From: an uncultured Clostridia bacterium | Lineage (GTDB): Bacteria; Bacillota; Clostridia; Christensenellales; Aristaeellaceae | Assembly (NCBI GenBank): GCA_947631405.1 | Contig: CANRLC010000011.1 | Coordinates: 1-51,877, forward strand | Direction of reading: 5' to 3' | DNA length: 51,877 bases | Shown: one piece after another, positions 3,405 to 43,990 of the stretch | Numbering within the stretch: position 1 is the stretch's first letter | Layout: each line of letters begins with the position of its first letter | Translations under genes and position numbers: made by a program | The notes under the pieces: generated by a model | What the model saw: the letters and a program-made list of their open reading frames with translations, nothing else | Database searches by the model: none | Told to the model about the DNA's origin: nothing

Positions 3405-3748
3405 TTGCCTTTTCACAGATAAAACCCTTATGTGCTGTAAACCAAAGGGAGGGGTCTGGGGACAATGTCCCCAGACAGGGTTTGGCGCTGGAGCCTGCCG
3501 CCGCCTGTGGCGGATGAAGGCAGGCGGAACGCGGGGAATCACAAGGAGTGAGCGAAGCTCACGACTATGTGAGTTCCCCGGATCGGTAGCCCCAACGGTA
3601 CCCCAATCGCGAAGCGATTGCCAAATGTAGCCCGGAAGCGAAGCGATCCCGGGCGGGTTGCTCATGAAAAGTTGCGGTACCCCGCCTATGCTTGCTCAGC
3701 GTAACCCATGACAGAATGATTCGATCATTTGATCTGAGAATAGTATTA
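3405..3748 (+). repeat. Structured dispersed element, copy 1 (long form, hairpin X)
   Basis: A 344-nt intergenic element. The left end (CTTTTCACAGATAAAA) is an imperfect inverted copy of the right end (reverse complement CTATTCTCAGATCAAA). Inside are a perfect hairpin GTCTGGGGACA-A-TGTCCCCAGAC; a long module with stems CCGCC/GGCGG (3501-3513), GGGGAA-TCACA/TGTGA-g-TTCCCC (3533-3579) and GTGAGC-GAA-GCTCAC (3548-3562); the hairpin AATCGC-GAA-GCGATT (3605-3619); and a GC-rich stem near 3630. It fills the gap between the GH10 gene and a convergent gene. It has the size and ends of a MITE, but no target duplication could be fixed. Confidence 0.8.
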
Positions 3749-3759
3749 GAGAGACGACT

Positions 3760-3785
3760 GGGGCCGCCGGAAAACCGGCGGCCCC
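3760..3785. terminator. Hairpin between convergent genes
   Basis: GGGGCCGCCGG-AAAA-CCGGCGGCCCC is a perfect 11-bp stem with a 4-nt loop, placed just past copy 1 of the dispersed element and before the convergent gene's stop. It is followed by TTCTATGC on the + strand. It could stop transcription from either side, though the T tract is weak. Confidence 0.6.
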
Positions 3786-3806
3786 TTCTATGCTTCTATG
3801 CTTGCC

Positions 3807-5441
3807 TTACTGCGCCAGCAGCGCGCTCACGGCGCTCATGATCTCCTCATTCTGGGTGAGGCTCATGCAGACGCCCATCAGCTGCGCGAAGGCTTGCTGC
3901 TTGACCGTCTCCCGATTCTGGGAATCGGAGAGATCGATCGCCGGGCCGGGCGCGAACTCGATGCCGTCGTATTCGTCGGCCTGCGCGCTCACGTTCGCCG
4001 TGACCGCCATGCCCAGCGCCTCGACGCGCGCGTTCGCGCCGAGCAGGAAGCCGCCGTCCGACACGCTGGTCTCGCCCTGCGCGCTCGCCGTGAGCAGCGC
4101 CTTCGGCTCGCCGTTCACGCGCTCGCTCACCGTGCCGCTCAGGTCAAACGCCTCCGCGTCGTCGCCGCCGTCGGTCTTGTAGGTCGCCGCGCCGTCGATG
4201 GCGACGCCCTGCGCCGTGCCCTGCGCCGCTTGGCGCACCTCTAGATAGCCGCTCAGGCTGTTGGCGTTCACGCCGTCCACGTCGCGCCCGACCCACAGGT
4301 CGAGGTCGCCCGCCAGACGGTTGCCCTCCATCAGCTCCAGCTCGCCGTGCGCGGTGTGGTGCTTCTGCTCGCGCTCGTCGCTCTTGACCGAGTAGACGAG
4401 ATCGCCCTCGTAGGGCAGCAGCGAGGAGATCTGCGGCACCTGCAAATCGTAGCCGACCACCGCGCCGTAATCGTCGTAGCCGAGGGTCATGTGGATGGTG
4501 CGCTCCGGGGTGATGTCCGCACCCTCCATCGCGTGCTCGACGCTCTTGTCCAGCTTCTTGATCGCGTATTCGATGTCGTCCTTGGTACACAGCGCGCCGT
4601 CGTCATACACGGTCGCAGAGGGCTGCACCCAGTCCACCGCGGGATCCATCTTCTCCTCGGTGAGCAGGCCGTCCACGAGCCGCCGCACCTGATAGCGCGT
4701 CACCCCGGCCTCGGCGAGCACGTCGGAGAGCGCCTGCTCCAGCGGGCCGCATTCGTCGCGCAGCGTCCAGAGGATGTTGACGAGGAAATCAAAGAAGTTC
4801 CACGACGGCGCTTCCGTCACCATCCGCAGGGAGACGGCGTCGCGCGTGTCGGTTGCCGCCACAGGCTCGTTGTCAAAGACGTAGAGCTTGCCCGTCTCCC
4901 GCTGCGTGTAGGAGATCCAGCCGAGCAGGTGGCCCATCAGCGTGAAGCGCAGATCGTCCAGCGCGATGACGAGCCGCTCCTTGGCCGGCAGCGAGGCGAA
5001 GGCCGGGTCGTTCACGCCGACGCCCTGCACGCCGCCGCCCGCCGGAAAGGCGAGCACCGAGTCGCCCGTCAGGTTCGTCTTCGCCTGAATCGAGCCGTCC
5101 CCGGCGATCAGCGCGTCCGCCGTCAGCAGCGGCGCGCCGCCCACCGTCAGCGCGGCCTTCACGCGCGCGGTGCCGAAATCGTCGTAGAAGGAGAGCTTCA
5201 ACTCCGCCATCTCCAGCAGCTTGCGCAGCGCCTGCGCGCGCGCGGAGGCCGCCTCGTCCGCCTCGAGCGAAAAGCCGACCGTGACGTCGATCTGCAGCCC
5301 GCCGACGTAGGCGTCGCTGATCGCCGTCGCCGTCACCTGCCCCGCCGGGATAACGTAGCCGCCCTCGGCTAGCGCGACGCAGTGCGACAGCAGCAGGGCC
5401 GCGCTCACCGCCAGTGCAACGATGCGTCTTGTGATGTTCAT
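3807..5441 (-). CDS. Exported protein of unknown function (544 aa)
   Basis: I do not recognise the family. The N-terminus is a signal peptide (MNITRRIVALAVSAALLLSH) with a likely cleavage after VALA. The rest is acidic and beta-rich, with no transmembrane segment, no sortase motif and no lipobox. Repeated phrases such as LTVGGAPLLTADALIAGDGS and SLSGYLEVRQ suggest a stacked or beta-sandwich extracellular protein. GGAAAGGAG precedes the ATG by 6 nt. The next gene upstream (5476-6738) is another exported protein of similar style, 34 nt away on the same strand, so the two are probably co-transcribed and may work together at the cell surface. Confidence 0.75.
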   Translation of the reverse strand: MNITRRIVALAVSAALLLSHCVALAEGGYVIPAGQVTATAISDAYVGGLQIDVTVGFSLEADEAASARAQALRKLLEMAELKLSFYDDFGTARVKAALTVGGAPLLTADALIAGDGSIQAKTNLTGDSVLAFPAGGGVQGVGVNDPAFASLPAKERLVIALDDLRFTLMGHLLGWISYTQRETGKLYVFDNEPVAATDTRDAVSLRMVTEAPSWNFFDFLVNILWTLRDECGPLEQALSDVLAEAGVTRYQVRRLVDGLLTEEKMDPAVDWVQPSATVYDDGALCTKDDIEYAIKKLDKSVEHAMEGADITPERTIHMTLGYDDYGAVVGYDLQVPQISSLLPYEGDLVYSVKSDEREQKHHTAHGELELMEGNRLAGDLDLWVGRDVDGVNANSLSGYLEVRQAAQGTAQGVAIDGAATYKTDGGDDAEAFDLSGTVSERVNGEPKALLTASAQGETSVSDGGFLLGANARVEALGMAVTANVSAQADEYDGIEFAPGPAIDLSDSQNRETVKQQAFAQLMGVCMSLTQNEEIMSAVSALLAQ

Positions 5442-5475
5442 TCCTCGCTCCTTTCCCCATGCAGCGCCTGCGCGC

Positions 5476-6738
5476 TCATAGGCCGCTTTCGATTTTATTC
5501 ATGCTGTCCTCGCCGAGCTGCGCGTACAGCCCGGCCGTCAGCGCGTGCAGCGCCTCGTCAAGCGCCGCGCGCGCGTCCGCCTGCGCCTCGCCGTCCGTCT
5601 GCGGGGCGGCGGGCGCGGTCAGGGCCGGCTTGCCGCCCGCCAGCGCCGTGAGCGTCACGCCGCCGCCGAGGAAGTCGTTGCCGTCCATCGTCACCGACAG
5701 CGTCCCCTCCGCCGTGAGCGGAACGGGGCCGCTCTGCCCCTCGGCCGTTTCCACATTCAGGCGGCCCTTGAGCGTCGCGGCGATGTCGTTGAGGCGCTGC
5801 ATGCGCCGCCCCGGCGTCCTGTCCGTGTGGCCGAGCGTCACGGAGACGGCGATCTTTTCGGAGAGGCCGCCCTCGTCCGCCGTCCAGTCGTTGGTCAGGC
5901 GCACCGTCAGGCGGCTGTCGATGCGGCTGCCCTCCAGTTCGCCGTCCGAGCGCAGCGACGTTTGCACGCTCGCCTTGCCCTTCGCGTCCTTGCGCTGAAC
6001 CTCCGAGGAGCGCGTGCTGGCGTAGGTGAGCGTGAAGTGGTTGTCCTCGTCGCGCGTCGCCGTCAGCTCGAACGTGTCCTTCGGCGCGCGCCCGCCCGGC
6101 TGGCGCAAAAAGCCCGTCACCTCGTAGGGCGCGCCCCCGTCCGGCGGCGTGATCGCGCCGCTCACGTCGATGCGCGTGAGCCGCTCTCCGTCGTCGGACA
6201 TCGTCCGCTCGACGGCAAACGCGCGCGCGACCGTCAGCCCCAGCGGCAGCGCGTCGCCGGGCTGCAGCGCCTCCAGCGCCTGCGCGAGCGCCGCGAGCGG
6301 CACGCGCTCGACGATGGAATCGACGCCCGGCAGCGTCCAGAGCGTCGCCTGCGGCAGCGAGGAGAGCAGCGCCTCGTCCGGCGCGAAGGTGTGCCCGTTC
6401 AGCCGCATCGCGGAGCCGTCGCGCGCGAGGGCCGCGTCCAGCAGCGTCTCGCCGCCGCGCTCGATGCGCAGCGCGTCCGCGCCGTCCTCGCCGCCCACGC
6501 TCTCGACGGTCAAGGTCGTGCCGGAGAGCATGTCCCGCAGCACGGTTAGATCGCGCGCGTAGAGCGCGTTGTCGGCGGTGAACTGCGCCGTCACGCGCAG
6601 GTCGTCCTGCCTTTGCAGGGCCTGCGCCGCGCGCAGCAGCCCCGGCGAAAAGCACTCGACGCCCGGCAGCGTCTGCGCCGCCGCCGTCGCGGTCAGCAGC
6701 GCAAACGCCGCACACGCCGCCGCAAGCATCCGTTTCAC
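5476..6738 (-). CDS. Exported protein of unknown function (420 aa)
   Basis: A signal peptide (MKRMLAAACAAFALLTATAAAQ) with an AxA cleavage site, followed by a beta-rich body with phrases such as RIERGGETLLDAALARDGSA and DDGERLTRIDVSGAITPPDG. No known domain is recognised. The GTG at 6738 is favoured over the ATG at 6729: GGAGG lies 8 nt upstream of it, and it supplies the positive n-region (KR) of the signal peptide. It lies directly after rimM, where trmD is usually found, and is followed by a second exported orphan. Composition and style resemble the 544-residue neighbour, so they may be distant paralogues; a profile comparison would tell. Confidence 0.75.
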   Translation of the reverse strand: MKRMLAAACAAFALLTATAAAQTLPGVECFSPGLLRAAQALQRQDDLRVTAQFTADNALYARDLTVLRDMLSGTTLTVESVGGEDGADALRIERGGETLLDAALARDGSAMRLNGHTFAPDEALLSSLPQATLWTLPGVDSIVERVPLAALAQALEALQPGDALPLGLTVARAFAVERTMSDDGERLTRIDVSGAITPPDGGAPYEVTGFLRQPGGRAPKDTFELTATRDEDNHFTLTYASTRSSEVQRKDAKGKASVQTSLRSDGELEGSRIDSRLTVRLTNDWTADEGGLSEKIAVSVTLGHTDRTPGRRMQRLNDIAATLKGRLNVETAEGQSGPVPLTAEGTLSVTMDGNDFLGGGVTLTALAGGKPALTAPAAPQTDGEAQADARAALDEALHALTAGLYAQLGEDSMNKIESGL

Positions 6739-6819
6739 CCTCGCTCGCCTCCGTCCTCGCGCCCTTCTATTCTAACGAAGGAGCGCGCCGTTTTCATCCC
6801 GCGTGGCCAAAGTTTCGCG

Positions 6820-7371
6820 TCAGCCGTCGTCCCGCGGGGAGGACTCCTCCTGCCAGACGGCCACCTCGGCGAGCGCCCGCTCGTCGAGCACGATGACGCC
6901 GCCCTCCACGTCCACCCGCGCGACGGCGCGCCGCAGCGCGGGCATGAGCATCTCGCCGCGCGGCGTGTCGAACGCGTACACGTCGCACACGGCGTTGGGC
7001 CGGAGCACCTCACGCAGCGTGCCGATCGGGTGGCCCTGCGTATCCTCGGCGCGCAGGCCAATCAGATCGCAGATGAAGTTTTCATCCTCGCCCAGCCGCC
7101 TCGCATGCGCGCGGTCGACGTACAATGTACAGCCGCGCAGCGCCTCGGCGGCGTTGCGGTCTTTTACGCCCTCCAGTGCCAGCACGGCGAAGCCGCCGGC
7201 GCAGCGGCCGTGCAGCACGCGCACGGGGACGTATTCGCCGCCCCGCGCCAGATACGCGCTTTGAAGGCGCGCATAAAAATCCGCGTCGCCGCTCTCGGCG
7301 CGCAGCTTCACCTCGCCGCGGATGCCTTGCGGCCGCACGATCTCGCCGATGGCGATATAGGGAGCCTGCAC
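6820..7371 (-). CDS. rimM: 16S rRNA processing protein RimM
   Basis: A 183-residue protein of normal length for RimM, which helps mature the 16S rRNA 3' domain and assemble the 30S head with S19. The N-terminal beta-barrel starts IAIGEIVRPQGIRGEVKL, the family signature. The PRC-barrel half holds LIGLRAEDTQGHPIGTL and ends with VDVEGGVIVLDERAL. The start is a GTG at 7371 with AAGGAGG 5 nt upstream; no ATG fits. It is the last member of the ylxM-ffh-rpsP-khpA-rimM run. In most Firmicutes trmD and rplS follow; here an exported orphan follows instead. Confidence 0.93.
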   Translation of the reverse strand: MQAPYIAIGEIVRPQGIRGEVKLRAESGDADFYARLQSAYLARGGEYVPVRVLHGRCAGGFAVLALEGVKDRNAAEALRGCTLYVDRAHARRLGEDENFICDLIGLRAEDTQGHPIGTLREVLRPNAVCDVYAFDTPRGEMLMPALRRAVARVDVEGGVIVLDERALAEVAVWQEESSPRDDG

Positions 7372-7446
7372 GGGAACCTCCTTGCCTGCGCGCTCGGGCG
7401 CGATAGAAACGCCGCGCCGCCTGCATGCGCAAACGGCGCGGAAGCC

Positions 7447-7674
7447 TCATAGGATCTCCACAAAGACGGGCTTGTCGTTGCGGGCGGTCGCCGCCTTGAC
7501 CACGGCGCGGATGGACTTGGCGATGCGGCCCTGTTTGCCGATCACCTTGCCCATGTCCTCCGGCCCGACGCTCAGCTCGATGATGACGGCTTCCGGCCCA
7601 TCGACGGCCTTCACCTGCACCTGCTCGGGATGATCGACGAGCGTCGAGGCGATGTAGCGAACCAATTCTTCCAT
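7447..7674 (-). CDS. khpA: KH-domain RNA-binding protein KhpA (YlqC)
   Basis: 75 residues, the usual size. It is a single KH domain with the GxxG loop in VIGKQGRIAKSIRAVV. In other Firmicutes KhpA pairs with KhpB/Jag and influences cell division and elongation by binding RNA. Its place between rpsP and rimM is the conserved one. A weak GAGGGC site precedes the ATG, fitting translation within the operon. Confidence 0.93.
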   Translation of the reverse strand: MEELVRYIASTLVDHPEQVQVKAVDGPEAVIIELSVGPEDMGKVIGKQGRIAKSIRAVVKAATARNDKPVFVEIL

Positions 7675-7710
7675 GTTTCAGCCCTCGCTTTCCGGGCAGC
7701 GCCCATGCGA

Positions 7711-7953
7711 TCAGGCGATCGCGCCGGTCTTCTTGAGCAGCGCGCGGACGGTATCGGTCGGCTGCGCCCCGTTCTTGATCCACGCCTTGGCCTTCTCGGC
7801 GTCGATCTTCAGCTCCACGGGGTCGGCGACGGGATTGTAGTACCCCAGCTCGTCGATGAAACGGCCGTCGCGGGACGCGCGCTCGTCGGCGACGACGACG
7901 CGATAGAAGGGCTTCTTCTTCATGCCCATCCTCTTGAGACGAATCTTGACCAT
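7711..7953 (-). CDS. rpsP: 30S ribosomal protein S16
   Basis: 80 residues starting [41 protein letters not shown]-like, the S16 signature. S16 binds 16S rRNA in the 5' domain of the 30S subunit. GAAGGAGG lies 7 nt before the ATG. It sits 65 nt after ffh on the same strand, in the standard ffh-rpsP-khpA order. Confidence 0.97.
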
Positions 7954-8018
7954 AACGGTTCCTCCTTCAAACGGTTTTCCCTTTTATTTCCCACAATCCG
8001 AGGATTGTCGGTGTCGTT

Positions 8019-9353
<1,335 letters not shown>

Positions 9354-9354
9354 G

Positions 9355-9693
9355 TCATCCCTCCTCCTGCGAAAGCAGCCGTGAAAGCGTCTCTCTCGCG
9401 CGCGAAGCCTCTTCGCCCGGCGCGCCCTCGAGCGCGCGCAGCGCATCGCGCAAGCCCGCCGTCATCCGGCGGTAGCGCTCCAGCAAGCCCAGCTCCCGCT
9501 CGTACTGCGCGAGCTGGCTCGCGCCGCGATGCACGGCGTCGTAGACGCCCTGCCGCGAGATGCCCTCCCGCGCGGCGATCTCCGAGAGGGAGAGATCCTC
9601 CTCGCAGTAGAGCGAGAGCAGGCCCCTCTGCCGCTCGGTCAGCAGCGGGCCGTAAAAATCGAACAGCCAGCCCGTCTCGATGCGATCCTCCAT
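9355..9693 (-). CDS. ylxM: SRP-associated HTH protein YlxM (UPF0122)
   Basis: 112 residues. It opens with ETGWLFDFYGPLLTERQRGLLSLYCEEDLS, then SLSEIAAREGISRQGVYDAV, a sigma-70-region-4-like helix-turn-helix typical of the family. YlxM is encoded next to ffh in most Firmicutes and in streptococci stimulates the SRP pathway. GGAGG lies 4 nt before the ATG. It is the first gene after a consensus promoter at 9730-9758. Confidence 0.95.
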   Translation of the reverse strand: MEDRIETGWLFDFYGPLLTERQRGLLSLYCEEDLSLSEIAAREGISRQGVYDAVHRGASQLAQYERELGLLERYRRMTAGLRDALRALEGAPGEEASRARETLSRLLSQEEG

Positions 9694-9729
9694 AGCGCCT
9701 CCGCCCGGCCTGAACGGCCGCTACCGCCC

Positions 9730-9758
9730 ATTATAGCGCGCTTTGCGCCGTCTGTCAA
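9730..9758 (-). promoter_or_regulatory. Consensus sigma-A promoter of the ylxM-ffh-rpsP-khpA-rimM operon
   Basis: Read on the minus strand: TTGACA (9758-9753), 17 nt, TATAAT (9735-9730). Both boxes are perfect consensus. The -35 box lies in one arm of a 24-bp perfect inverted repeat (9752-9775). Confidence 0.85.
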
Positions 9759-9775
9759 GGGTTTTTCCTTGACAG
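9752..9775. promoter_or_regulatory. Perfect inverted repeat covering the -35 box (possible operator)
   Basis: CTGTCAAGG-GTTTTT-CCTTGACAG: 9-bp perfect arms and a 6-nt centre. One arm contains the -35 of the ylxM-ffh promoter. No T tract follows the hairpin in the minus direction, so protein binding is as likely as termination after the upstream acetyltransferase gene. Confidence 0.5.
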
Positions 9776-9812
9776 TGTGGCGAAAAAAAGAGAGCCGCGC
9801 CATTTGCAGCCC

Positions 9813-11347: not shown

Positions 11348-11375
11348 GCGGTTTCTCCTTTGTCGCAAGGGGTGC

Positions 11376-11410
11376 AAAAAGGGGCCTGCGGCGCAAGCGC
11401 CCCGGCAGGC
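11376..11410 (-). terminator. Intrinsic terminator of the spoIIID-mreB unit
   Basis: On the minus strand: GCCTGC-cgg-GGCGC-TT-GCGCC-GCAGGC followed by CCCTTTTTGC. The stem ends directly at the T run and lies 10 nt past the mreB-like stop codon. Confidence 0.8.
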
Positions 11411-11419
11411 TCCCGTGGG

Positions 11420-12460: not shown

Positions 12461-12494
12461 GTGTCGCGCCTCATCTTTCTTGCGCCCCGCGCCG

Positions 12495-19888: not shown

Positions 19889-20107
19889 ATGAAGATCACG
19901 CGCAAGAATCTGCTCTCCCTCCTCACGGGCATGGAACGCGCCGGGCAGCTGCCCGCCGACGGCCCGACGTCCATCTTTCTGCCGGGGCGGCCGCTGGTGC
20001 AGCTCGCCGTGCGGGTGGAGGGCGGACGCGTCGCGGTGTACACGAGCCGCCTGCCGTTCTCGCGGCCCGTGGAATTCACCTTGGAGGAGATCCGCAGCGG
20101 GGTGTAA
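19889..20107 (+). CDS. Small protein of unknown function (72 aa)
   Basis: Not recognised. It starts MKITRKNLLSLLTGMERAGQ after a good AAAGGAG and reads FLPGRPLVQLAVRVEGGRVA then FSRPVEFTLEEIRSGV. It is soluble, mixed alpha/beta by eye, with one small hydrophobic patch and no cysteines. A strong promoter and ribosome site argue that it is expressed. Its stop codon TAA overlaps the first bases of copy 2 of the dispersed element, so its C-terminus may have been set by the element. Confidence 0.7.
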   Translation: MKITRKNLLSLLTGMERAGQLPADGPTSIFLPGRPLVQLAVRVEGGRVAVYTSRLPFSRPVEFTLEEIRSGV

Positions 20108-20339
20108 TACAGTCTTTATATGCTGCAAAGCACAGAACGGGGTCTGGGGACAATGTCCCCAGACAGGGTTTGGGGCGGTAGCCCCAACGTACCCCAAATC
20201 GCGAAGCGATTGCCAAAAGTAGCCCGGTAGCGAAGCGTTCCCGGGCGGGTTCATCATGAAAAGTCTCGCCTCCCGCTTTTGCTTGCCCGGCGTCATCCGA
20301 TGTCGGAGCGTGTAGATCATTTGATTTGAGAACAGTATG
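20105..20339 (+). repeat. Structured dispersed element, copy 2 (short form, hairpin X)
   Basis: It begins TAATAC, overlapping the upstream stop codon, and then lacks about ten bases of the left terminal repeat. The shared hairpin GTCTGGGGACA-A-TGTCCCCAGAC is followed directly by the small hairpin GGGGC-GGTA-GCCCC in place of the long module of copies 1 and 3. Hairpin X (AATCGC-GAA-GCGATT, 20197-20211) follows. The right end ATTTGATTTGAGAACAGTAT matches the other copies. The gap from here to 20433 holds one further hairpin and no gene. Confidence 0.8.
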
Positions 20340-25499: not shown

Positions 25500-25787
25500 G
25501 CGGGTATGAAATACATGCGGCCACGGGCGCAAAACCCTCGCTTTACGCCCCACGCCCTTCGGAGGTGGGTGCGGGCACAGCCCACCGGCCTCGGACGCGA
25601 AACCTCCGATCACATCCAAGCCCTTCGGAAATGGGCGCAGGCACAGCCCGCCGGAAGTGGGCACGGACACAGCCCGCCCGCCAGCCCACCGGCCTCGGGC
25701 GCAAAACCCTCGCCCTACGCCCAAGCCCTTCGGAAATGGGTGTGGGCACAGCCCACCGGAGATGGGTGCGGGCACCGCCCGCCCCGC
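25500..25787. repeat. Imperfect tandem repeats between permease and enzyme genes
   Basis: This gap of about 390 nt within a run of co-directed genes holds three copies of a roughly 65-nt unit. Each begins near GGGCGCAAAACCCTCG and ends CCCTTCGGAAATGGGY plus GCACAGCCCACCGG; the CCCTTCGG core is at 25555, 25621 and 25726. Extra short units (GGGCACGGACACAGCCCGCC type) lie between. Each unit can fold as GGTGGG...CCCACC. It is not CRISPR: spacers are not unique and units are contiguous. No gene is supported here. Confidence 0.75.
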
Positions 25788-26657
25788 TTAGCCTTTGACG
25801 GCGCCGCCCGTGATGCCCTCGACGTAGAACTTCTGCATGATGAAGAACAGCGCGGAGATCGGGATGGAGACCAGCACGCCGCCAGCGCAGAAGAACGTGA
25901 AGTACTGATTGATGAGGCTCTTGTCGAGCATGCGGTACAGGCCCACGGCGACCGTGTAATTGGCCGAGATGCCCGCATTGAGGATCATCTTCGCGAAGAC
26001 GAAGTCCATCCACGGCGCGAGGAAGCTGTTGATGATCGTGTAGACGATGATCGGGCGGCTCGTCGGAATGACGATCTGCCAGAAGATGCGCGCCTCGGAG
26101 CAGCCGTCAATGCGCGCGGCCTCGCACAGCGCGCGCGGCACCGTGTCAAAGAAGCCCTTGCAGATCAGGTAGCCGAGGCCCGCCGACGCGCTGTAGACGA
26201 GCGTCAGGCCGAGGTGGCTGTTCGTCAACCCAAAGGTGCGCAGCGTGAAGTACACGGCGATCATGCTCAGCACGCCCGGGAAGAGGTTGAGCATGACGGC
26301 GACGTTCATCAGCGGCTTGCGCGCCTTGAACTTGCCAAAGCTCATCGCATAGGCGACCATCAGCACAAAGCAGGTGGAGATCACGCAGCTCGCGCAGGCG
26401 ATCTTGAAGGTGTTCATGAACCACGTCGGGAACTGATTGACGGTATCCACCTGAAACAGCTCCACATAATGGCTCGCGCTCCACTGGGTGGGGAAGAACG
26501 TGCTGGTGTTGATGCCGTCGTAAGCGCTGAAGGACGTACACACCAGCCAGATGATCGGGATCAGCCAGATGAAGGCGAGCACGGCGATGAGCGCGTTGTG
26601 CAGCACGATGCTCGTGCGCTTCTTGGCGCTCATGCGCGGCTTGATGGTTTGCGTCAT
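25788..26657 (-). CDS. Carbohydrate ABC transporter permease, MalG type
   Basis: 289 residues with six membrane segments and the permease EAA loop EAARIDGCSEARIFWQIVIP. LIPIIWLVCTSFSAYDG and YFTLRTFGLTNSHLGLTLVYSA are typical of MalG/GanQ. It pairs with the MalF-type permease; their genes overlap by four bases (ATGA), and the ribosome site AAGGAGG is inside the end of that gene. No ATPase gene is in the cluster, so a shared MsmK-type ATPase elsewhere is expected. Confidence 0.93.
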   Translation of the reverse strand: MTQTIKPRMSAKKRTSIVLHNALIAVLAFIWLIPIIWLVCTSFSAYDGINTSTFFPTQWSASHYVELFQVDTVNQFPTWFMNTFKIACASCVISTCFVLMVAYAMSFGKFKARKPLMNVAVMLNLFPGVLSMIAVYFTLRTFGLTNSHLGLTLVYSASAGLGYLICKGFFDTVPRALCEAARIDGCSEARIFWQIVIPTSRPIIVYTIINSFLAPWMDFVFAKMILNAGISANYTVAVGLYRMLDKSLINQYFTFFCAGGVLVSIPISALFFIMQKFYVEGITGGAVKG

Positions 26658-34676: not shown

Positions 34677-34753
34677 GTACCGGCCATCGTATGCAAAAGA
34701 ATAGCATCAACGGAAAACGGACATGCGTCAAACGACGGAAAGGGGTGTTCCCG

Positions 34754-35416: not shown

Positions 35417-35434
35417 TAAACGAATGACATCGGC

Positions 35435-35464
35435 GCGGCCCGGCGAAAGCCGGGCCGCATTGTT
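35435..35464 (+). terminator. Intrinsic terminator of the PepSY-repeat gene
   Basis: GCGGCCCGGC-GAAA-GCCGGGCCGC followed by ATTGTTTGG. A perfect 10-bp stem with a GAAA loop. The same stem sequence recurs in the terminator at 38814-38837. Confidence 0.75.
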
Positions 35465-35472
35465 TGGCCTTC

Positions 35473-35507: not shown

Positions 35508-35533
35508 CATCTCAAAGCAAGGGAGGCGACGCC

Positions 35534-36352: not shown

Positions 36353-36424
36353 CGTCGCGTTTTTACAAGACGGCTTCCCCAAAGTGCGCTATCCTGCGGG
36401 TATCCTAGTCAAGGAGGCGATTTG

Positions 36425-37339
36425 ATGGAACCTTTTGAAAGCGCCGCGCGCTTCATGCGCCGCTGCGCCCGCCCGATCGACCTTGCCCGCTGGCAATTCC
36501 ACTTTGAAGGCGGAGAGCGGGACGCCGTGCTGCGCGCCCTGTCCGCCTACCAGAACGCCGACGGCGGCTTTGGCCACGCGCTGGAAGCCGACAGCTTCAA
36601 CCCGAACTCCTGCCCCATCCAGACGTGGGCCGCGACCGAGATCCTCCGAGAGATCGGCGCGGACGGCGCGGCCCGCCCGATCGTGCAGGGCATTTTGCGC
36701 TATCTGGACAGCGGTGCGGACTTTGACGAGGGCCGCCGCCAGTGGCGCAACGCCGTGCCGTCCAACAACGATTTCCCCTGCGCGGCGTGGTGGAAATGCG
36801 GCGAGGACGGCGGCGATTTTCGCTATAACCCCACGGCGGCGCTGGCGGGATTCGCGCTGCGCTTTGCCGCGCCGGAAAGCCGGCTGTACGCGCTGTGTTT
36901 TTCCCTCGCCGGGGAAGCGGCGGATTGGCTGGGGCGCCAGCCAGCCTTCGCCGAGCAGCACATCGCCGCCTGCTTCATCCGCCTGTATGAGGACTGCGCG
37001 GCGGCGGGCGTCGCGCCCTTCGATGCGGACGCGCTACTCGCGCGCCTTCGGGAGATGGCGCGCCTGTGCCTGGAGGGCGCGCCCGAAAAGTGGGGCCGCG
37101 AATACGCGGCGTTTCCCTCCGACCTGATCTCCTCGCCGGACAGCCCGCTTCGCCCGGCGCTGTCCGGCGTCATCGCCGCGCAGTGCGATTACATTCGCGG
37201 CGGCCAGCTCCCCGACGGCTCCTACCCCGTGCCGTGGACGTGGTACAATGACGACCCGGACTTCCCCGTCGCCGAGCTGTGGTGGAAGGGCGACATGCTC
37301 GTCAAATTCATGCACTTTCTACGCGCGTTTGGCGGTTAA
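36425..37339 (+). CDS. Alpha/alpha-toroid protein (prenyltransferase/terpene-cyclase fold)
   Basis: 304 residues. The repeating helix pairs carry the QW-like glycine turns of this fold: SAYQNADGGFGHALEADSFN, RYLDSGADFDEGRRQWRN, and GGQLPDGSYPVPWTWYNDDP. Members include lyases, cyclases and unknown enzymes; the DXDD-type catalytic motif is not visible, so function is open. AAGGAGG lies 7 nt before the ATG at 36425. It follows the AraC gene by 72 nt on the same strand. Its stop codon TAA overlaps the first bases of copy 3 of the dispersed element. Confidence 0.72.
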   Translation: MEPFESAARFMRRCARPIDLARWQFHFEGGERDAVLRALSAYQNADGGFGHALEADSFNPNSCPIQTWAATEILREIGADGAARPIVQGILRYLDSGADFDEGRRQWRNAVPSNNDFPCAAWWKCGEDGGDFRYNPTAALAGFALRFAAPESRLYALCFSLAGEAADWLGRQPAFAEQHIAACFIRLYEDCAAAGVAPFDADALLARLREMARLCLEGAPEKWGREYAAFPSDLISSPDSPLRPALSGVIAAQCDYIRGGQLPDGSYPVPWTWYNDDPDFPVAELWWKGDMLVKFMHFLRAFGG

Positions 37340-37677
37340 TGCTTTTCTCAGATAAAAACTTAATCTGGTGCGAAGCACAGGATGGGGTCTGGGGACAATG
37401 TCCCCAGACAGGGTTTGGCGCTGGAGCCGAGCGCGGCCAGTGGCCGAAACAGCGAGGCGGAAGCGGGGAATCGCAAGAAGCGAGCGAAGCTCGCGACTAT
37501 GCGAGTTCCCCGGATCGGTAGCCCCAACGTTCCCCGGCGCGTAGCGCCCACAAATCAGTAACCCGGAAGCGAAGCGATCCCGAGCGGGTTGCTCATGAAA
37601 AATTACGTTATCCCGCTTTTTCTTGCTCAGAATAACCCATGGCAATGGTTCGATCATTTGACTTGAGAATAGTATAA
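37337..37677 (+). repeat. Structured dispersed element, copy 3 (long form, hairpin Y)
   Basis: 341 nt. Left end TAATGCTTTTCTCAG, whose TAA is the stop codon of the upstream gene; right end TTGAGAATAGTATAA. It has the shared hairpin; the long module with stems CGGCC/GGCCG (37434-37446), GGGGAA-TCGCA/TGCGA-g-TTCCCC (37465-37511) and GCGAGC-GAA-GCTCGC (37480-37494); then GGCGC-GTA-GCGCC (37536-37548) where copies 1 and 2 have the AATCGC hairpin. The stem sequences differ from copy 1 in paired positions. Confidence 0.8.
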
Positions 37678-37699
37678 GGTCGTCTTTATAGGCCGACGG

Positions 37700-37728
37700 T
37701 TGACTTTGTACGCACTAAGTGATAATAT
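37700..37728 (+). promoter_or_regulatory. Promoter of the AT-rich exported gene
   Basis: TTGACT (37700-37705), 17 nt, TAATAT (37723-37728) with an extended TG (37720-37721). It begins 23 nt past the dispersed element, so the 444-nt gap (37340-37783) holds the element, this promoter and a short leader. Confidence 0.65.
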
Positions 37729-37783
37729 GTTTACACATCCAAACAGAAATGGATGAATTTACAAAAGAAAAGGAGATGGTATT

Positions 37784-38794
37784 GTGGATAATCCAATCAG
37801 AGCAAGAAGAGGTATCCTCTATCTCATCATGGTTTTGGCAATCCTATGCCTCAACGCCGCTTACGCAGAAGCGAATGAAAGAATTGTGGATCGTTTGGAA
37901 TTCAAGCAGGGAACCATTACAGTAGATATGTCTGAACCCGTGCAGGCAGACAGCGTCACAACATATACAACAAAGAATATACCCATTGAGCCGGATGATT
38001 TCGAGACGGTTCTTGGCGGCGCGGCTTCACAGGGTTCTATCAGCATTGAAAACAAACCGGATGAAATCACATATTCCTTTTCCCTTGACGGCACCGTCGG
38101 CCTTTGCCCGCTGCTGAGAACCTGCGGGGCCTATCAAACGGAGAGCACGCCGAACGTTCAGGCTGCCGTAGACAGCGTGAAGGCGATGCTCACCGAATGG
38201 AAAATCCCATGCACGGCGTATTTTGTTGGAAGGAAGGACGATGTGATCCGGCTTGGCGCATGCGAAAAAGAACGGGAACAGGTTGACAGTCAGGCGGAAA
38301 ATGAGAATGATATAACGGCCATTTTATTCCGTTATCCGGTAGGCGATCTATTCTATGACATGAATTCTTATGTTTTTAACCCGGCGCGAAAACCAAATGA
38401 AGGGTTCCGTTATGGTCATGATTGCGGCGGTTATGTCACTGCAATCGTCAGGGATGACGGCGCCATTGAAAACCTAAACATCGTCTTTCCTGTAGAGACG
38501 GAATCGAAGGCGGGAGAAGTCAAATGCGTCAAATGGCAAGAAGCGCTAAACAAAGTGATCGATGAAATTCAAAGAAAAGCGGAAGAAGCGAAATATAAAA
38601 ATTGTAACTATACAATACGCAGAATGGAGCTAACGCAAATCGCAGATGATCGCGCTGTAACGCATCCCATTTGGAATGTCGATGTGGAACAGACGATAGG
38701 TCATACGGACTCAGACAGAGTAGAAAACTATATCACGTCTTATCAAATCAACGCCACCAACGGAGAGCTTCTTTGGCCCGAAGAAGAAAGGTAA
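37784..38794 (+). CDS. AT-rich exported protein of unknown function (336 aa)
   Basis: Not recognised. A GTG start with AGGAG 8 nt upstream; the signal peptide RGILYLIMVLAILCLNAAYA is cleaved before EANERIV. The mature part is hydrophilic with five Cys (CPLLRTC, CTAY, GHDCGGY, VKCVKW, KNCNYT) and ends NATNGELLWPEEER, which resembles a PepSY-like last strand. It is built as two similar halves by eye. The coding sequence is clearly richer in A/T, with AAA and GAA codons, than every gene around it, which suggests recent transfer. It lies between copy 3 of the dispersed element and a terminator. Confidence 0.75.
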   Translation: MDNPIRARRGILYLIMVLAILCLNAAYAEANERIVDRLEFKQGTITVDMSEPVQADSVTTYTTKNIPIEPDDFETVLGGAASQGSISIENKPDEITYSFSLDGTVGLCPLLRTCGAYQTESTPNVQAAVDSVKAMLTEWKIPCTAYFVGRKDDVIRLGACEKEREQVDSQAENENDITAILFRYPVGDLFYDMNSYVFNPARKPNEGFRYGHDCGGYVTAIVRDDGAIENLNIVFPVETESKAGEVKCVKWQEALNKVIDEIQRKAEEAKYKNCNYTIRRMELTQIADDRAVTHPIWNVDVEQTIGHTDSDRVENYITSYQINATNGELLWPEEER

Positions 38795-38813
38795 GACGGC
38801 AACCGAGACTGAC

Positions 38814-38845
38814 GCGGCCCGGCTTTCGCCGGGCCGCGCTTTATT
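38814..38845. terminator. Terminator between convergent genes
   Basis: GCGGCCCGGC-TTTC-GCCGGGCCGC followed by GCTTTATTT on the + strand. It serves the AT-rich gene and probably the minus-strand HD-GYP-like gene that ends at 38860. Confidence 0.75.
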
Positions 38846-38859
38846 TGCCTGTCTCTGCC

Positions 38860-40716
38860 CTACGCCCCGCGCAGCGCCGCCTCGCGCCTGCGCAGCAGCT
38901 CCTCCGCCGCCTCGCGCACGAAGCGGGGAATGTCCTCGCGCAGCGCGTCCACGCGCCCCGGCGCGCGCAGCAGCTCGGCGACGAACGGCGCGTACCGCTT
39001 GCCCGCCCCCTCGAGGACGCGCCGCGCCGCCTGTTCGGCGGTCAGCGGCTCGCGCGCGCGGCCCGCGGTCTCCTCGGCGGCGACGGACAGCGCGTCCGCC
39101 GCGGCGACCAGAAAGATCATCGCGCGCATCGGGGACTGGCGCACCGAGAACCCGAGCGGGTAGCCGGAGCTGTCGTCGTAGGCGCGGTGATGGCCGTTCG
39201 CCACATCCGCGTAGATCGCCGTGGAGGGCTGGCGGCGCAGCAGATCCGCGCCGCAGTAGGCGTGCATCTGCAGCAGCGTCTCCTCCTCCTCAAACAGGCC
39301 GCGGCAGGCCAGCTCCTCGATGCTCAAAAAGTGGATCATGCCCGCGTCGCATAGCTTGCCCGCGTTTGCGGCCATCTCCAGCAGCGCCTCGCGGCCCCAG
39401 ATCACGTCCTCGACGCGCGCGCAGCCGGGCAGGCCCGCCAGCTTCTCCGGGCAATCCTCGATCGCCCACGCGCAGAGCGTGCGGGAGAGGCGCGACGTGA
39501 CGCCCATGCGCACATAGCCGACCGGGTCGCGCGCGGCGAAGGCGGTTTGCAGCGTCTCGAGAAACGTCGGGCAGCCCGGCAGCTCCCGGTAAAAGTAGAG
39601 CGCCTGCCGCAGGTAAAACATGAGATCCCCGCCCGCGTTTTCGGCCGGCGCGCGCACGATGAACGCGCACAGGCGGGCGACCATGTTCTTCACCTGCCGG
39701 GCGGTGTCCTCGGGCAGGCGCTCCCCCTGCGCGTATTCCAGATACAGCCCCAGCGTGCCGACGTGTGAAAACACGCTCTGCGCGCCGAAGTCGTCGTCCG
39801 GCATGGAGTAGGCGAGCGCGTAGATGCCCTCCAGCAGCTCGGAAAGCTCCAGCGCGCCGCAGTGGTACTGCGCGGCCAGATACGCGTATTGCCAGCGCGG
39901 CTGGAGCGACTCGCCGCGCTCGCGCGCGAGCTGCGCCTGCCGCCGCTCGACGATCTGCGCGGATTCCAGCACCTGCACGAACGCCTCCGGCTCGGCCCGG
40001 CCGGAGCGCAAATAGGGCAGCAGCGCCGTCCGCTCCATGTGGCTCTTGTAGAGGTAGGTGTCCCATGGCAGCGACGGCGTCTTCGCGCGCAGCTCGGGAT
40101 CGGACAGGAGGCGGATGGAGCGCGTGACCGCCTCCAGCTTCAGGCGCGCCGCGTCGGTGGTCGCGCCGTAGCTCAGGGCGATATTGCCCATGCTCCGGTG
40201 GATGTAGCCGCGCGTCTCGGGATCCTCAATCCTGTCGTACTCGGTCTCAAAATAGGACGCGCTCTCGGCGAAGCACAGCCGCATGCGCGCGCTGTACGGG
40301 CGCATGCCGCTGGGCGAGAGCAGACGCTCCATCTGGTAAAGCGCCATGCCCACCTGATACAGCTCGCGGATGAGCATGTCGCGCCTCTTCCAGTGGCGCG
40401 CGTAGTTCGTCAGCGCCATATGGATGCGGTAGTGCAGCACGATGTCCGCCGGGTTTCCCTCCGTCAGCCCGCTCGCGAAGGCGGTCAGCTCGTCGATCTC
40501 CTGCTGGGAGGCGGAAAGCACGTTGTCCAGCATCGGGAACAGCCCTTCGCGCAGCAGCTGCGTGCCGCGCTGCACGGCCCGCCGCGACGCGCGGCCCTGC
40601 TCGCGCAGCGCCGCCGCGCAGGCCTCCGCGCCGCCCGCTCCATCCGCAGGCGGCGTCTGGCCGCCGCGCACCGAGGCGAGCAGCTCCATGTATTCCCGCT
40701 GGTAGGCCCTGTCCAT
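38860..40716 (-). CDS. HD-GYP-like domain protein with altered catalytic dyad
   Basis: 618 residues, no membrane segment. Residues 1-430 are helical and repetitive (for example ASYFETEYDRIEDPETRGYIH and LSYGATTDAARLKLEAVTRS), likely a TPR-like or sensory all-alpha region. The last part aligns with HD-GYP proteins: LCDAGMIHFLSIEELACRGL, MHAYCGADLLRR, and GHHRAYDDSSGYPLGF (HH at residues 509-510). Where active proteins have HD (as in LHDIGK), this has Cys456-Asp457, and the following Lys is Met. It may sense cyclic dinucleotides without hydrolysing them. GGAGG and AAGGA precede the ATG at 40716. It is the gene after the hybrid kinase. Confidence 0.75.
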   Translation of the reverse strand: MDRAYQREYMELLASVRGGQTPPADGAGGAEACAAALREQGRASRRAVQRGTQLLREGLFPMLDNVLSASQQEIDELTAFASGLTEGNPADIVLHYRIHMALTNYARHWKRRDMLIRELYQVGMALYQMERLLSPSGMRPYSARMRLCFAESASYFETEYDRIEDPETRGYIHRSMGNIALSYGATTDAARLKLEAVTRSIRLLSDPELRAKTPSLPWDTYLYKSHMERTALLPYLRSGRAEPEAFVQVLESAQIVERRQAQLARERGESLQPRWQYAYLAAQYHCGALELSELLEGIYALAYSMPDDDFGAQSVFSHVGTLGLYLEYAQGERLPEDTARQVKNMVARLCAFIVRAPAENAGGDLMFYLRQALYFYRELPGCPTFLETLQTAFAARDPVGYVRMGVTSRLSRTLCAWAIEDCPEKLAGLPGCARVEDVIWGREALLEMAANAGKLCDAGMIHFLSIEELACRGLFEEEETLLQMHAYCGADLLRRQPSTAIYADVANGHHRAYDDSSGYPLGFSVRQSPMRAMIFLVAAADALSVAAEETAGRAREPLTAEQAARRVLEGAGKRYAPFVAELLRAPGRVDALREDIPRFVREAAEELLRRREAALRGA

Positions 40717-40760
40717 TCCTTCGCCTCCCTTCCGCCGTCTGCTTTTATCATTCAACCCAA

Positions 40761-40918
40761 ATACTACCGCTTGTCGAAAACCCTAGTTTCACTTCACCTT
40801 GCACTTTCGAGGGATGTGGGGCGCTGCCCCACCGCCCCGCTTAGGGGCTTTCCGGTCGCCCCTAAGAACCCTTCGGCCCTTACGCCTTAAACGCTGCTAA
40901 TATGCTTAGATTTAGTAT
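40761..40918. repeat. GC-hairpin intergenic element, possible relative of the four-copy family
   Basis: This 201-nt gap holds GTGGGGC-GCT-GCCCCAC, the strong stem CTTAGGGGC/GCCCCTAAG and AT-rich ends. ATACTA (40761-40766) and TAGTAT (40913-40918) form short terminal inverted repeats like the ATACT ends of the other elements, and the end again touches a stop codon (TGA of the kinase gene). The interior differs from the other four, so kinship is tentative. Confidence 0.5.
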
Positions 40919-42861
40919 CAGCCCCGCGCGCCCTTGCGCTCGCCCGCGAGGAAGCGGCGCATCACGTCCGCGAGGCTCTGCACGCTCGCGGGCTTGGGCA
41001 CATGCGCGTTCATGCCCGCGCGCTCGCAGGCGCGGATGTCCTCGACGAACGCGTTCGCGCTCATCGCCACGATGGGAACGCGCTTCGCGTCCTCGCGCGG
41101 CAGCGCGCGGATGGCGCGCGTGGCCTCGTAACCGTCCATCACGGCCATTTGAAGATCCATGAAGATCAGGTCAAACGTCCCGGGCGGGCACGCCGCAAAG
41201 CGGTCGAGCGCCTGCTTGCCGTCCTCGGCGCATTCGACCGTCGCGCCGAGCATCTCCAGCAGCTCCACGCCGATCTCCCGGTTGATCTCGTTGTCCTCCA
41301 CCAGCAGCAGGTGGCAGCCGGAAAAGTCGTCCTGCGCCTGCGCGTTGGCCCGGTTGCGGCGCGCCATGCCCTCGGGCGTGTATTCGCACAGCGCCTTGCC
41401 CAGCCGCGTGCGGAAGAGCGGCTTGGGCACGAACGCGCTGATGCCCGCGGCGCGCATCTCGTCGCCGGAGAGCGTCCACTCCCACGAGGACATGACGAGG
41501 ATGGGCGTCCCGTCGCCCAGCATCGCGCGCAGCTCGCGGCTGGCGGCCACGCCGTCCACGACGGGCAGATGCCAGCTGAGCAGGATGGCGAAGTAGTCGT
41601 TCCCCTCCATGCGCGCCCTGCCCGCCAGCTCATAAGCGGACAGCGCGTTTTCGCACAGGTCGCAGGTCATGCCCAGATCGGAGAGGATGCGCGCGGTGTT
41701 CTGCCGCGCGGCGGCGTCCCCGTCGGCGACCAGAACGCGCAGGCCGCGCAGCTCGGTAAGCTCGTCCTCACCGCCGGAGAGCTGCTCCAGCGGCAGGGTG
41801 ACGGTGAAGCGCGTGCCCTTGCCCTCCTCGCTCTCCACGGAAATCTCGCCGTTCATCATCTCCACGAGGTTGCGCGTGATCGCCATGCCCAGCCCCGTGC
41901 CCTCCACGCGATTGACCTCCCGCGCGCGCTCGAACGGGGAAAACAGGCGGCTGAGCGCCTCCGGCCCCATGCCGATGCCCGTGTCGGCGATGACGAACTC
42001 GTAATAGGCGTAATTGTGCTCGCCCTTGCTCCTCTCCCCCGTCTCGCGCACGCGCATGGAGATCGTCCCCTCCGGCGGCGTGAACTTGACGGCGTTGGAG
42101 AGGATGTTGATCATGATCTGCTGCATGCGCAGCTGATCGCCGCGCACCTGCTCGTGAATCACGCCGGAAAAGTCCAGATCGACCTTCTGCCACTTCTTGT
42201 CCGCCTGCGGGCGCAGCACGGCCATCAGCGCGTGGATGAAGTCGGCCATCGTGAACGCCTCGGGACTGAGCGACATCTTGCCGCTCTCGATGCGCGACAT
42301 GTCGAGGATGTCGTTGATGAGCGCCAGCAGGTGGCGCGAGGAAAGCTCGATCTTCTTGAGGCAGTCGTCCACGCGGTCGCGATCCTGCGCGTGCGCCTGC
42401 GCGATGGTCGTCATGCCGATGATCGCGTTGAGCGGCGTGCGGATGTCGTGGGACATGCTGGAGAGGAAGTCCGTCTTCGCCTTCGAGGCGGCGTTCGCCG
42501 CGTCCAGCGCGCTCTTGAGCGCGGCGTTCGCCGCGTCCATGCGCTCCTGCTGGCGGCGAAGCTCGTCCGTGCCGTCCCAGAGCAGCGCCATGCAGCGCCC
42601 GCCCTCGTGCGGGGAGAGCGGCATGAACATCCGCCTGCCGCGCAGCTCTCCGCGCCAGACCAGCCCCGTCTCGCCCGCGGCGGCCCGCTCGATCTCGGGC
42701 GCGGCCAAGAGAAGCAGCTCCTCCTCGCCGCCCCGCAAAAACGCTTCCGCCGCGGGGTTGCGATAGGCGCAGCCCCACCCGTCCTGCCGCCGCTCCAGCA
42801 GCAGGACGCCGGCGGCCAGCGGGTCGTAGGCCGCGGCGAGACGCCGAAGCTCCTCGTGCAT
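40918..42861 (-). CDS. Soluble hybrid histidine kinase with two receiver domains
   Basis: 647 residues, no membrane segment. A PAS-like N-terminus (about 1-100), a short coiled coil (EERMDAANAALKSALDAANA-type), HisKA with SHDIRTP (His 138), HATPase with NILSNAVKF, DTGIGMG and GTGLGMAI, then two receivers. Receiver 1 (LRVLVADGDAAARQNTARIL) has LLSWHLP where Asp is expected; the residue is Ser 429. Receiver 2 has VEDNEINREI, FMDLQMAVMDG (Asp 569) and MSANAF, so it can be phosphorylated. The ATG at 42861 follows GAGGAGGAG; codons up to 43008 overlap the promoter. No separate output protein is adjacent except the HD-GYP-like gene downstream. Confidence 0.9.
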   Translation of the reverse strand: MHEELRRLAAAYDPLAAGVLLLERRQDGWGCAYRNPAAEAFLRGGEEELLLLAAPEIERAAAGETGLVWRGELRGRRMFMPLSPHEGGRCMALLWDGTDELRRQQERMDAANAALKSALDAANAASKAKTDFLSSMSHDIRTPLNAIIGMTTIAQAHAQDRDRVDDCLKKIELSSRHLLALINDILDMSRIESGKMSLSPEAFTMADFIHALMAVLRPQADKKWQKVDLDFSGVIHEQVRGDQLRMQQIMINILSNAVKFTPPEGTISMRVRETGERSKGEHNYAYYEFVIADTGIGMGPEALSRLFSPFERAREVNRVEGTGLGMAITRNLVEMMNGEISVESEEGKGTRFTVTLPLEQLSGGEDELTELRGLRVLVADGDAAARQNTARILSDLGMTCDLCENALSAYELAGRARMEGNDYFAILLSWHLPVVDGVAASRELRAMLGDGTPILVMSSWEWTLSGDEMRAAGISAFVPKPLFRTRLGKALCEYTPEGMARRNRANAQAQDDFSGCHLLLVEDNEINREIGVELLEMLGATVECAEDGKQALDRFAACPPGTFDLIFMDLQMAVMDGYEATRAIRALPREDAKRVPIVAMSANAFVEDIRACERAGMNAHVPKPASVQSLADVMRRFLAGERKGARG

Positions 42862-42954
42862 AGGCTCCTCCTCGCGCGCCCGGCGCGGGCGCGCTCCGTC
42901 CGTAAAGCGATTCTTTCGTGCGGGCCGGTCTGTCGCCCGCCCGAGCTTTGTATC

Positions 42955-42983
42955 AGTATAACATACGGATTTGGTGAAGTCCA
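42955..42983 (-). promoter_or_regulatory. Promoter of the hybrid kinase gene
   Basis: Minus strand: TGGACT (42983-42978), 17 nt, TATACT (42960-42955). The -35 box matches consensus at four of six positions. Confidence 0.5.
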
Positions 42984-43025
42984 CCATTTTCACGGGGCGC
43001 TCGCGCAAAATCGCGCGGCGCTCCC

Positions 43026-43054
43026 TTGTGCGGCGGCGCTTTTCGCGTTACAAT
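43026..43054 (+). promoter_or_regulatory. Promoter of the beta-phosphoglucomutase gene
   Basis: TTGTGC (43026-43031), 17 nt, TACAAT (43049-43054), about 63 nt before the ATG. Confidence 0.55.
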
Positions 43055-43117
43055 GGATAAGGGAAAAATCCTCGCCGCGCGCGGCGCGCCGCGGCGAGAT
43101 CAACGGAGGAAACGATC

Positions 43118-43750
43118 ATGAAATATCGCGGCATCATCTTCGATCTGGACGGGGTCGTCTGCTCGACGGACGAATACCACTATCTGGCGTGGAAGGCGCT
43201 CGCCGACCGCCTTGGCATCCCCTTCGATAGGGAGCGCAACAGCCTGCTGCGCGGCGTGAGCCGCATGGACAGCCTGCGCATCATTCTAGAAAAGGCCGAC
43301 AGGGCCTACACGGACGCGGAGATGGCGGCCTTCGCCGAGGAAAAGAACGCGCTCTATCGCGAGCTGCTCGGGCGCATGTCCCCCGCCGATCTTTCGGACG
43401 ACGTGCGCGCCACGCTGGACGCGCTGCGCGCGGACGGGAAGCGGCTGGCCATCGGCTCCTCCAGCAAGAACACGCCCTTTATTCTGGAACGCCTCGGCCT
43501 GTCCGATTTCTTTGACGCGGTCGCCGACGGCAACTGCATCACCCATTCCAAGCCGCACCCCGAGGTCTTTCTGAAGGCGGCGGAGATGCTCGGCCTCGCC
43601 CCTTGCGACTGTCTGGTCGTCGAGGACGCGCACGCAGGCGTCGAGGCGGCGAGGCGCGGCGGCTTTGACTGCGCCGCCATCGGAGACGCGCGGGACGACG
43701 CGCGCGCCGCCTATTCGCTTGACCGGCTTTCCGATCTGCTGGGGATATAG
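43118..43750 (+). CDS. pgmB: Beta-phosphoglucomutase (HAD family)
   Basis: 210 residues. IIFDLDGVVCSTDEYHYLAWKALADRLGI holds the nucleophile and acid Asp (residues 9 and 11) and the His/Trp pattern that marks beta-PGM among HAD proteins; NSLLRGVSRMDSLRIIL is the substrate cap; GSSSKNT, HSKPHPEVFLKAAEML and VVEDAHAGVEAA complete the site. It converts beta-glucose-1-phosphate (from disaccharide phosphorolysis) into glucose-6-phosphate. AGGAGG lies 7 nt before the ATG. Copy 4 of the dispersed element starts directly after its TAG. Confidence 0.9.
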   Translation: MKYRGIIFDLDGVVCSTDEYHYLAWKALADRLGIPFDRERNSLLRGVSRMDSLRIILEKADRAYTDAEMAAFAEEKNALYRELLGRMSPADLSDDVRATLDALRADGKRLAIGSSSKNTPFILERLGLSDFFDAVADGNCITHSKPHPEVFLKAAEMLGLAPCDCLVVEDAHAGVEAARRGGFDCAAIGDARDDARAAYSLDRLSDLLGI

Positions 43751-43990
43751 ATAATACTTTTCTCAGTTAGAATCTTTATATCACAGGATGGGGTCTGGGG
43801 ACAATGTCCCCAGACAGGGTTTGGGGCGGTAGCCCCAACGTACCCCGGCGCGTAGCGCCCACAAATCAGTAGCCCGGAAGCGAAGCGATCCCGGGTGGAT
43901 CGTTCATGAAAAGTGGCGTACTCCCGCTTTTGCTTGTCCTGCGTAGCCCAATGACAGAATGATGGATGATTTGATTTGAGAATAGTATAA
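43751..43990 (+). repeat. Structured dispersed element, copy 4 (short form, hairpin Y)
   Basis: 240 nt, with the best-kept ends: ATAATACTTTTCTCAG at the left and, read in reverse complement from the right, TTATACTATTCTCAAATC. It has the shared hairpin, GGGGC-GGTA-GCCCC as in copy 2, then GGCGC-GTA-GCGCC (43847-43859) as in copy 3. Together the four copies show every combination of long or short module with hairpin X or Y. Confidence 0.8.

Follow-up and report, generated by a model that had tools for sequence, protein, structure and literature searches.

Miniature elements of probable IS630 type with a conserved hairpin core at gene ends in an uncultured Clostridia bacterium

The window, by which we mean the whole analysed stretch of 51,877 nucleotides, belongs to contig CANRLC010000011.1 of an uncultured Clostridia bacterium (family Aristaeellaceae, assembly GCA_947631405.1), and four copies of a hairpin-rich intergenic element lie between its genes. 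An earlier note had located these copies, pointed out a perfect hairpin common to all of them, and weighed two views of the element, namely a miniature inverted-repeat transposable element (MITE) and a functional RNA or DNA fold. All four copies were found where the note had placed them, and both views find support in the results given below. The MITE interpretation is well supported, and we consider it quite probable that the best explanation is an IS630-type MITE family that inserts at TNA and carries hairpins as its cargo.

Four copies between the genes of the window

All four copies are on the forward strand. The element proper runs from TAC to GTA, and the limits given in the earlier note had taken in the 3-bp flanking repeats. 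Copy 1 (3406..3745, long form) has a decayed left end (TGCCTTTTCACAG) and a right end GATCTGAGAATAGTA that is followed by TTA. Copy 2 (20108..20337, short form) is flanked on the left by the TAA at 20105-20107, which is the stop codon of the gene at 19889-20107, and on the right by TGA, an inexact repeat. Copy 3 (37340..37674, long form) lies between two TAA triplets, of which the left one (37337-37339) is the stop codon of the gene at 36455-37339. Copy 4 (43755..43987, short form) is bounded by TAA at 43752-43754 and at 43988-43990 and begins just past the stop codon of the gene at 43118-43750. The distances from the upstream forward gene are 17, 0, 0 and 4 nt for copies 1 to 4.

The hairpin that had been recognised as common to the copies, here called HP1 (GTCTGGGGACAATGTCCCCAGAC), is identical in each of them and occupies 3454..3476, 20142..20164, 37387..37409 and 43793..43815. 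In the short forms the next hairpin is HP2 (GGGGC-GGTA-GCCCC; 20172..20185 in copy 2 and 43823..43836 in copy 4), and in the long forms HP2 is the seat of a long module, element B (3486..3584 in copy 1 and 37419..37516 in copy 3). HP3 exists as type A (AATCGC-GAA-GCGATT) in copies 1 and 2, at 3605..3619 and 20197..20211, and as type B (GGCGC-GTA-GCGCC) in copies 3 and 4, at 37536..37548 and 43847..43859. HP4 (GCCCGG-AAGCGAAGCGAT-CCCGGGC) closes the series at 3630..3654, 20222..20246, 37561..37585 and 43872..43895. The fold of copy 4 beat 200 out of 200 shuffled sequences on both strands (z -4.1 sense, -4.6 antisense). No Rfam family matched within the window at the gathering score, and a relaxed threshold gave two chance-level matches in copy 1 (E up to 5).

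The genome from which the window comes (the source genome) is a 2.28-Mb draft in 68 contigs, several of which end inside copies, and chimeric joins at the identical core are possible. A search with HP1 gave 92 occurrences at up to 2 mismatches, with none for the reversed-pattern control; 81 of these were placed and analysed. Element length is mostly 181-339 nt in the copies that have both ends. A covariance model built on HP1 and HP2, searched across 29 genomes of the genus, gave 136 matches in the source genome, and at least 141-150 in each of seven congeners; other genomes had fewer, and 8 of the 29 had none. The further copies that the earlier note proposed to look for are thus plentiful, in the source genome as well as in congeners. 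By eye, one copy appears to be orthologous between two species, lying upstream of the same gene (L366 in genome G011 and L388 in G026). The exact core 31-mer was absent from the GTDB r220 contigs searched, and the HP1 23-mer and an end 18-mer were absent from IMG/VR, both being collections from which records of or near the source genome may have been excluded. A search of plasmids and phages with copy 4 also gave no match.

Ends, flanking repeats and a candidate mover

Left ends of the element read TACTTTTCTCAGATNAAA (also given as TACTTTTCTCAG and TACTWTTCTCAGAT) and right ends ATTTGAGAATAGTA (also given as TTTGAGAATAGTA); they form imperfect terminal inverted repeats of about 18 nt, with TA at both termini. 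When 300 genomes of the bacterial family were searched, 19 contained the end pattern, and the reversed control gave nothing in any of the 300. Flanking repeats and stop-codon coincidences were counted in copies with both ends only, 35 for each count, in partly different sets. An exact direct repeat of 3 bp and of the form TNA flanks 18 of the 35 copies, as compared to a mean of 6.6 and a maximum of 15 in 10,000 shuffles. For 25 end-bounded elements from other genomes, two of which (the L171 rows) have one right end in common, the exact 3-bp repeat was found in 15 (shuffle mean 5.8, maximum 14), and TNA stands at 45 of the 50 flanks. The TNA repeat would thus be a target-site duplication, as judged from these sequence comparisons. 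At one further locus (L011, about 1380-1720) a terminator-like flank of some 40 nt appears by eye to be duplicated on either side of a copy, which is longer than the usual 3-bp repeat.

With its short length, non-autonomous character, high copy number, terminal inverted repeats and flanking repeat, the family has the general traits of a MITE. Ends in common with an autonomous element, as expected for an IS630-type MITE, were found in four transposase-bearing elements of 1107-1275 nt. Two are from the same genus, L483 (1109 nt, flanks TAA/TAA) and L471 (1275 nt, TAA/TTA); the others are L445 (1107 nt, TAA/TAA) and L441 (1111 nt, TGA/TAA). The right end of L483 is identical in 17 of 18 positions to the right-end consensus of the source genome. 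Pieces of L445 and L441 match the Pfam family DDE_3, and those of L445 also match NF033545 (IS630). The coding capacity of the four elements was judged by open frames and Pfam matches only, the genes being read in more than one frame. A transposase with matching ends, which the earlier note had proposed to search for, is therefore present in a congener. A link of the family to IS630 is likely on these similarities, and an IS630 enzyme may well be what moves it.

Several observations weigh against this explanation. The exact flanking repeat is missing in 17 of the 35 copies, and of the four IS630 elements only L483 and L445 have an exact TNA repeat; L441 and L471 do not. TA is the target rule of IS630 in general. 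The repeat that exceeds chance here is TNA rather than TA, although TA stands at both termini of the element, and RUP, a known IS630-type MITE, is reported at TA-containing targets (PMC2229807). Furthermore, a partner transposase was not found in the same genome, the matching elements being in other genomes only: no IS630 (DDE_3) gene was detected in the draft assembly of the source genome or in the high-copy genomes G018, G020, G026 and G010, which implies that in these five the mover is absent or unassembled. Finally, G020, G011 and G017 carry at least 146-150 core matches but no exact match to the end pattern. Thus, the core also travels in another way, and is older or wider in distribution than the IS630-type ends.

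Other transposases offer no better partner in the source genome. Y1_Tnp gave no match there or in the core-rich genomes G010, G011, G017, G025, G026, G028 and G019, and DUF4096 gave none in the source genome. DDE_Tnp_1, searched in 8 genomes, had one match in the source genome, a frame of 483 amino acids, and its 2994-nt locus contained no family end at up to 3 mismatches. By current data, this makes the family an orphan MITE in the source genome.

Gene ends, modules and nested insertions

The genes around 71 copies of the source genome were called with a codon-model gene caller, 10 copies near contig ends being left out. The contexts were convergent in 40 cases, tandem forward in 20, tandem reverse in 8 and divergent in 1, with one neighbour uncalled in 2, and the upstream gene was co-directional in 61 of the 70 copies with a call. 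Two orientations in this count (L039 and L049) rest on a mutated loop base and are probably reversed. Among the copies with both ends, the flanking TNA coincides with a gene's stop codon in 20 of 35, against 10.7 expected (P 1.4e-4) when any TNA within the same interval is taken as equally usable. The coincidence is at the left end in 18 of these cases and at the right end in 2. For the congeners, 76 of 82 matches were submitted to the same kind of count and 74 were counted. None had a divergent context (4 had one side uncalled), the left end was within 40 nt of the stop of the upstream gene in 27, and the right end was within 25 nt of the stop of a convergent gene in 25, the latter two numbers being tallied by eye. 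Since copies in congeners lie either way round at stops, the placement is general and the sense orientation is not. In G020 (L345-L364), core copies often form inverted pairs that flank a terminator-like hairpin between convergent genes, with right ends near stop codons.

This placement can be understood if an IS630-family transposase recognises the ends TACTWTTCTCAGAT...ATTTGAGAATAGTA and the element inserts at TNA, with duplication of three bases. If the target triplet is a stop codon (TGA or TAA), the left-hand repeat would preserve the stop, and since an insertion at the last codon would then be harmless, insertions would build up at gene ends, with nearly none between divergent genes. If true, the re-creation of TGA and TAA stops by TNA duplication provides a simple route by which a transposable element can reach high numbers in a compact genome without doing harm. 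The cargo would be the chain HP1, HP2, HP3 and HP4, of which the first two would be kept through selection on a one-strand fold or homogenised between copies. Element B would enter HP1 or HP2, and an IS110-family element would enter B.

The two exchangeable positions noticed in the window, with all four combinations, are borne out across the genome. With HP4 as the anchor, 79 copies were compared; both positions could be called in 78, and these were short with HP3 type A in 44 cases, short with type B in 16, long with type A in 15 and long with type B in 3, without association between the positions (Fisher P 0.54). The earlier note had explained this by recombination or module exchange between copies, which holds in part. 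As HP3 types assort freely with the long module, exchange is possible for them, as are independent lineages. The long module, however, is not merely swapped: element B is a repeat family of its own, whose tail matched 46 times in the source genome when up to 3 mismatches were allowed. Of the 30 element-B loci that were read, several are not part of the MITE, e.g. L091 and L118. The seat of element B is HP2 in copies 1 and 3 and HP1 in other copies of the source genome, and in congeners it is found in HP1 or HP2 and in either direction.

Element B is in its turn a target. In the source genome, 12 contig ends (L078-L089) carry an IS110-type end sequence; at 10 of them it joins element B after CRCAAG, and at the other two (L084 and L088) a similar short site elsewhere. 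The same end sequence occurs in complete elements of other Clostridia, one of which (L269) has a gene of the IS110 family; the corresponding gene of the copies in the source genome was not assembled. An insert bearing an open reading frame had been considered as an autonomous form of element B, and this candidate was rejected because its end sequence is that of the IS110-family elements. If the insertions occurred as proposed, they form a clean nested series, in which the MITE on a stop codon has received element B in HP1 or HP2, and B an IS110-family element.

The conserved core and competing explanations

Conservation of HP1 was determined in 48 places that were obtained by a genome-wide search for left ends and thus chosen independently of HP1. 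These comprised 36 copies that keep HP1, 5 reversed right ends, 4 copies with element B in HP1, 2 with HP1 and HP2 fused and 1 truncated copy. In the 36 copies, the stem was changed at 0 of 720 sites and the loop at 3 of 108. Non-majority bases made up 0.4% of HP1, 0.1% of the linker with HP2 (27 short copies) and 1.6% of HP4, as compared to 12.4% in the left arm, 21.8% in the HP3 region and 17.2% in the right arm; only copies in which a short HP2 or an HP4 could be recognised enter the values for HP2, HP3 and HP4. Private substitutions per base amounted to 0.12% in HP1, 2.0% in the left arm, 1.5% in the HP3 region and 5.1% in the right arm. This set supersedes one of 46 copies with a single stem change in 920 sites, derived from 75 end-like matches by excluding 24 reversed right ends, 1 truncated, 2 fused and 2 B-containing copies, which was biased to intact HP1 because its loci had mostly been fetched by HP1. 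In two loci (L187 and L192) HP1 and HP2 are fused to a single hairpin, perhaps via recombination at their shared GGGG stretches.

In relatives the HP1 stems covary. The 81 HP1 copies found there have 24 distinct stems when aligned on the inner five pairs only, and Watson-Crick or G-U pairing is seen in 114 of the 120 outer pairs (mean 82.5 and maximum 98 in 2000 shuffles, which ignore relatedness). The test requires the inner five pairs and was redone without an earlier filter of at least 7 Watson-Crick pairs. There were 19 G-U pairs, 10 of them at one position of the stem, and no A-C pairs, which suggests that the sense strand is the folded one, as RNA or as single-stranded DNA. HP2 varies by compensated changes and by swaps of the whole loop. 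The functional fold proposed in the earlier note is in this way backed by covariation, the core is likely functional, and selection rather than gene conversion would be the force that keeps it.

The strongest competing view, which is compatible with a MITE origin and which we regard as a real if tentative possibility, is that the core acts mainly in cis as an RNA in 3' untranslated regions. Its hairpins would shield mRNA ends or exclude Rho or nucleases, and hosts would retain copies for this benefit. The unchanged HP1 stems in copies with diverged arms, the covariation on the sense strand with G-U but not A-C, and the predominance of left-end coincidences with stops in the source genome agree with it, as do terminator-like hairpins that are visible by eye after copies 1 and 4, of which a simple scan around copy 4 found none. 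The presence of cores at stops in either orientation in congeners and the patchy spread over the genus weigh against such a role.

Slightly less probable is the view that gene conversion or a very recent spread from one master, and not selection, made HP1 and HP2 uniform in the source genome. The core is indeed uniform there and different in relatives. However, the arms of the same copies have diverged, with private substitutions at least 12 times as frequent as in HP1, and several compensated stem types occur side by side within G020, G011 and G026. With a similar degree of reservation, one can envisage HP1 and HP2 as a genus-wide structured module with a role of its own at gene 3' ends, its one-strand fold under selection, that rides unrelated movers (with IS630-type ends in some species and others elsewhere) which insert at and regenerate stop codons, so acting as a portable 3'-end cassette. 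A conserved, covarying core at many gene 3' ends would provide natural replicates for studying the effect of 3'-end hairpins on mRNA.

As compared to the IS630-type explanation, that of an IS5/IS1031-type MITE is highly improbable. TNA duplication marks the IS5/IS1031 group, the TNA repeat is seen both in the source genome and in elements of other genomes, and genes for IS5-like transposases are situated close to copies in G026 and G025. The IS5-family elements of G026, to which the comparison was confined, are nevertheless bounded by other ends (GAGTGTGTTTC or GGGTGTGTTTC), DUF4096 is unmatched in the source genome, and the transposase-bearing elements that have the family ends are IS630. Least credible of all is that the copies are repetitive extragenic palindromic (REP) elements with a RAYT (Y1/HUH) transposase as their mover: GTAG/GGAG motifs, typical of REPs, stand beside imperfect hairpins, and these together with C-GNA-G loops look REP-like by eye, but Y1_Tnp was unmatched in the source genome and the seven core-rich genomes searched, and a flanking target repeat is present, which HUH enzymes are not known to make.

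The earlier note knew of no named family with this layout, and we found none in Rfam and, in a literature search by title, no prior description. The nearest known kinds are RUP and the modular BOX elements, and the present family is of the same kind. According to PMC2229807 and PMC3049150, IS630-Spn1 is the proposed mover of RUP (repeat unit of pneumococcus), which, like the family described here, is non-coding, intergenic, present in about 100 copies and equipped with terminal repeats that resemble those of an IS630-family element. Our family differs, by description rather than by sequence comparison, in its TNA flanking repeat, its frequent location at stop codons and its covarying multi-hairpin core. 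BOX elements of streptococci (boxA-boxB-boxC), as described in PMC3049150, are likewise repeats composed of modules that have IS-like ends and carry hairpins, whereas the modules found here, compared by eye, consist of separate hairpins plus a nested element instead of tandem boxB units, and the ends are different. With REP and BIME elements and their RAYT enzymes the family shares intergenic hairpins at high copy number, and differs from them in the Y1 result given above and in having a flanking target repeat. Insertion sequences are reported to target REPs (PMC1525189), which is paralleled here by the IS110-family element in B. Correia/NEMIS and ERIC elements are also structured MITEs and are reported to act on the mRNA of adjacent genes (PMC2229807); their ends, hosts and cargo are different, as judged by eye.

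Two other repeats were noticed in the window. Another intergenic hairpin repeat, arranged in tandem (CCCTTCGGARATGGGY..GGGCACAGCCCRCC), lies at 25550-25810, and a similar motif adjoins one copy of the MITE elsewhere (L051). A perfect, terminator-like inverted repeat of 26 nt occurs at 35433-35458 and again at 38814-38839, and is thus common to two distant gene ends.

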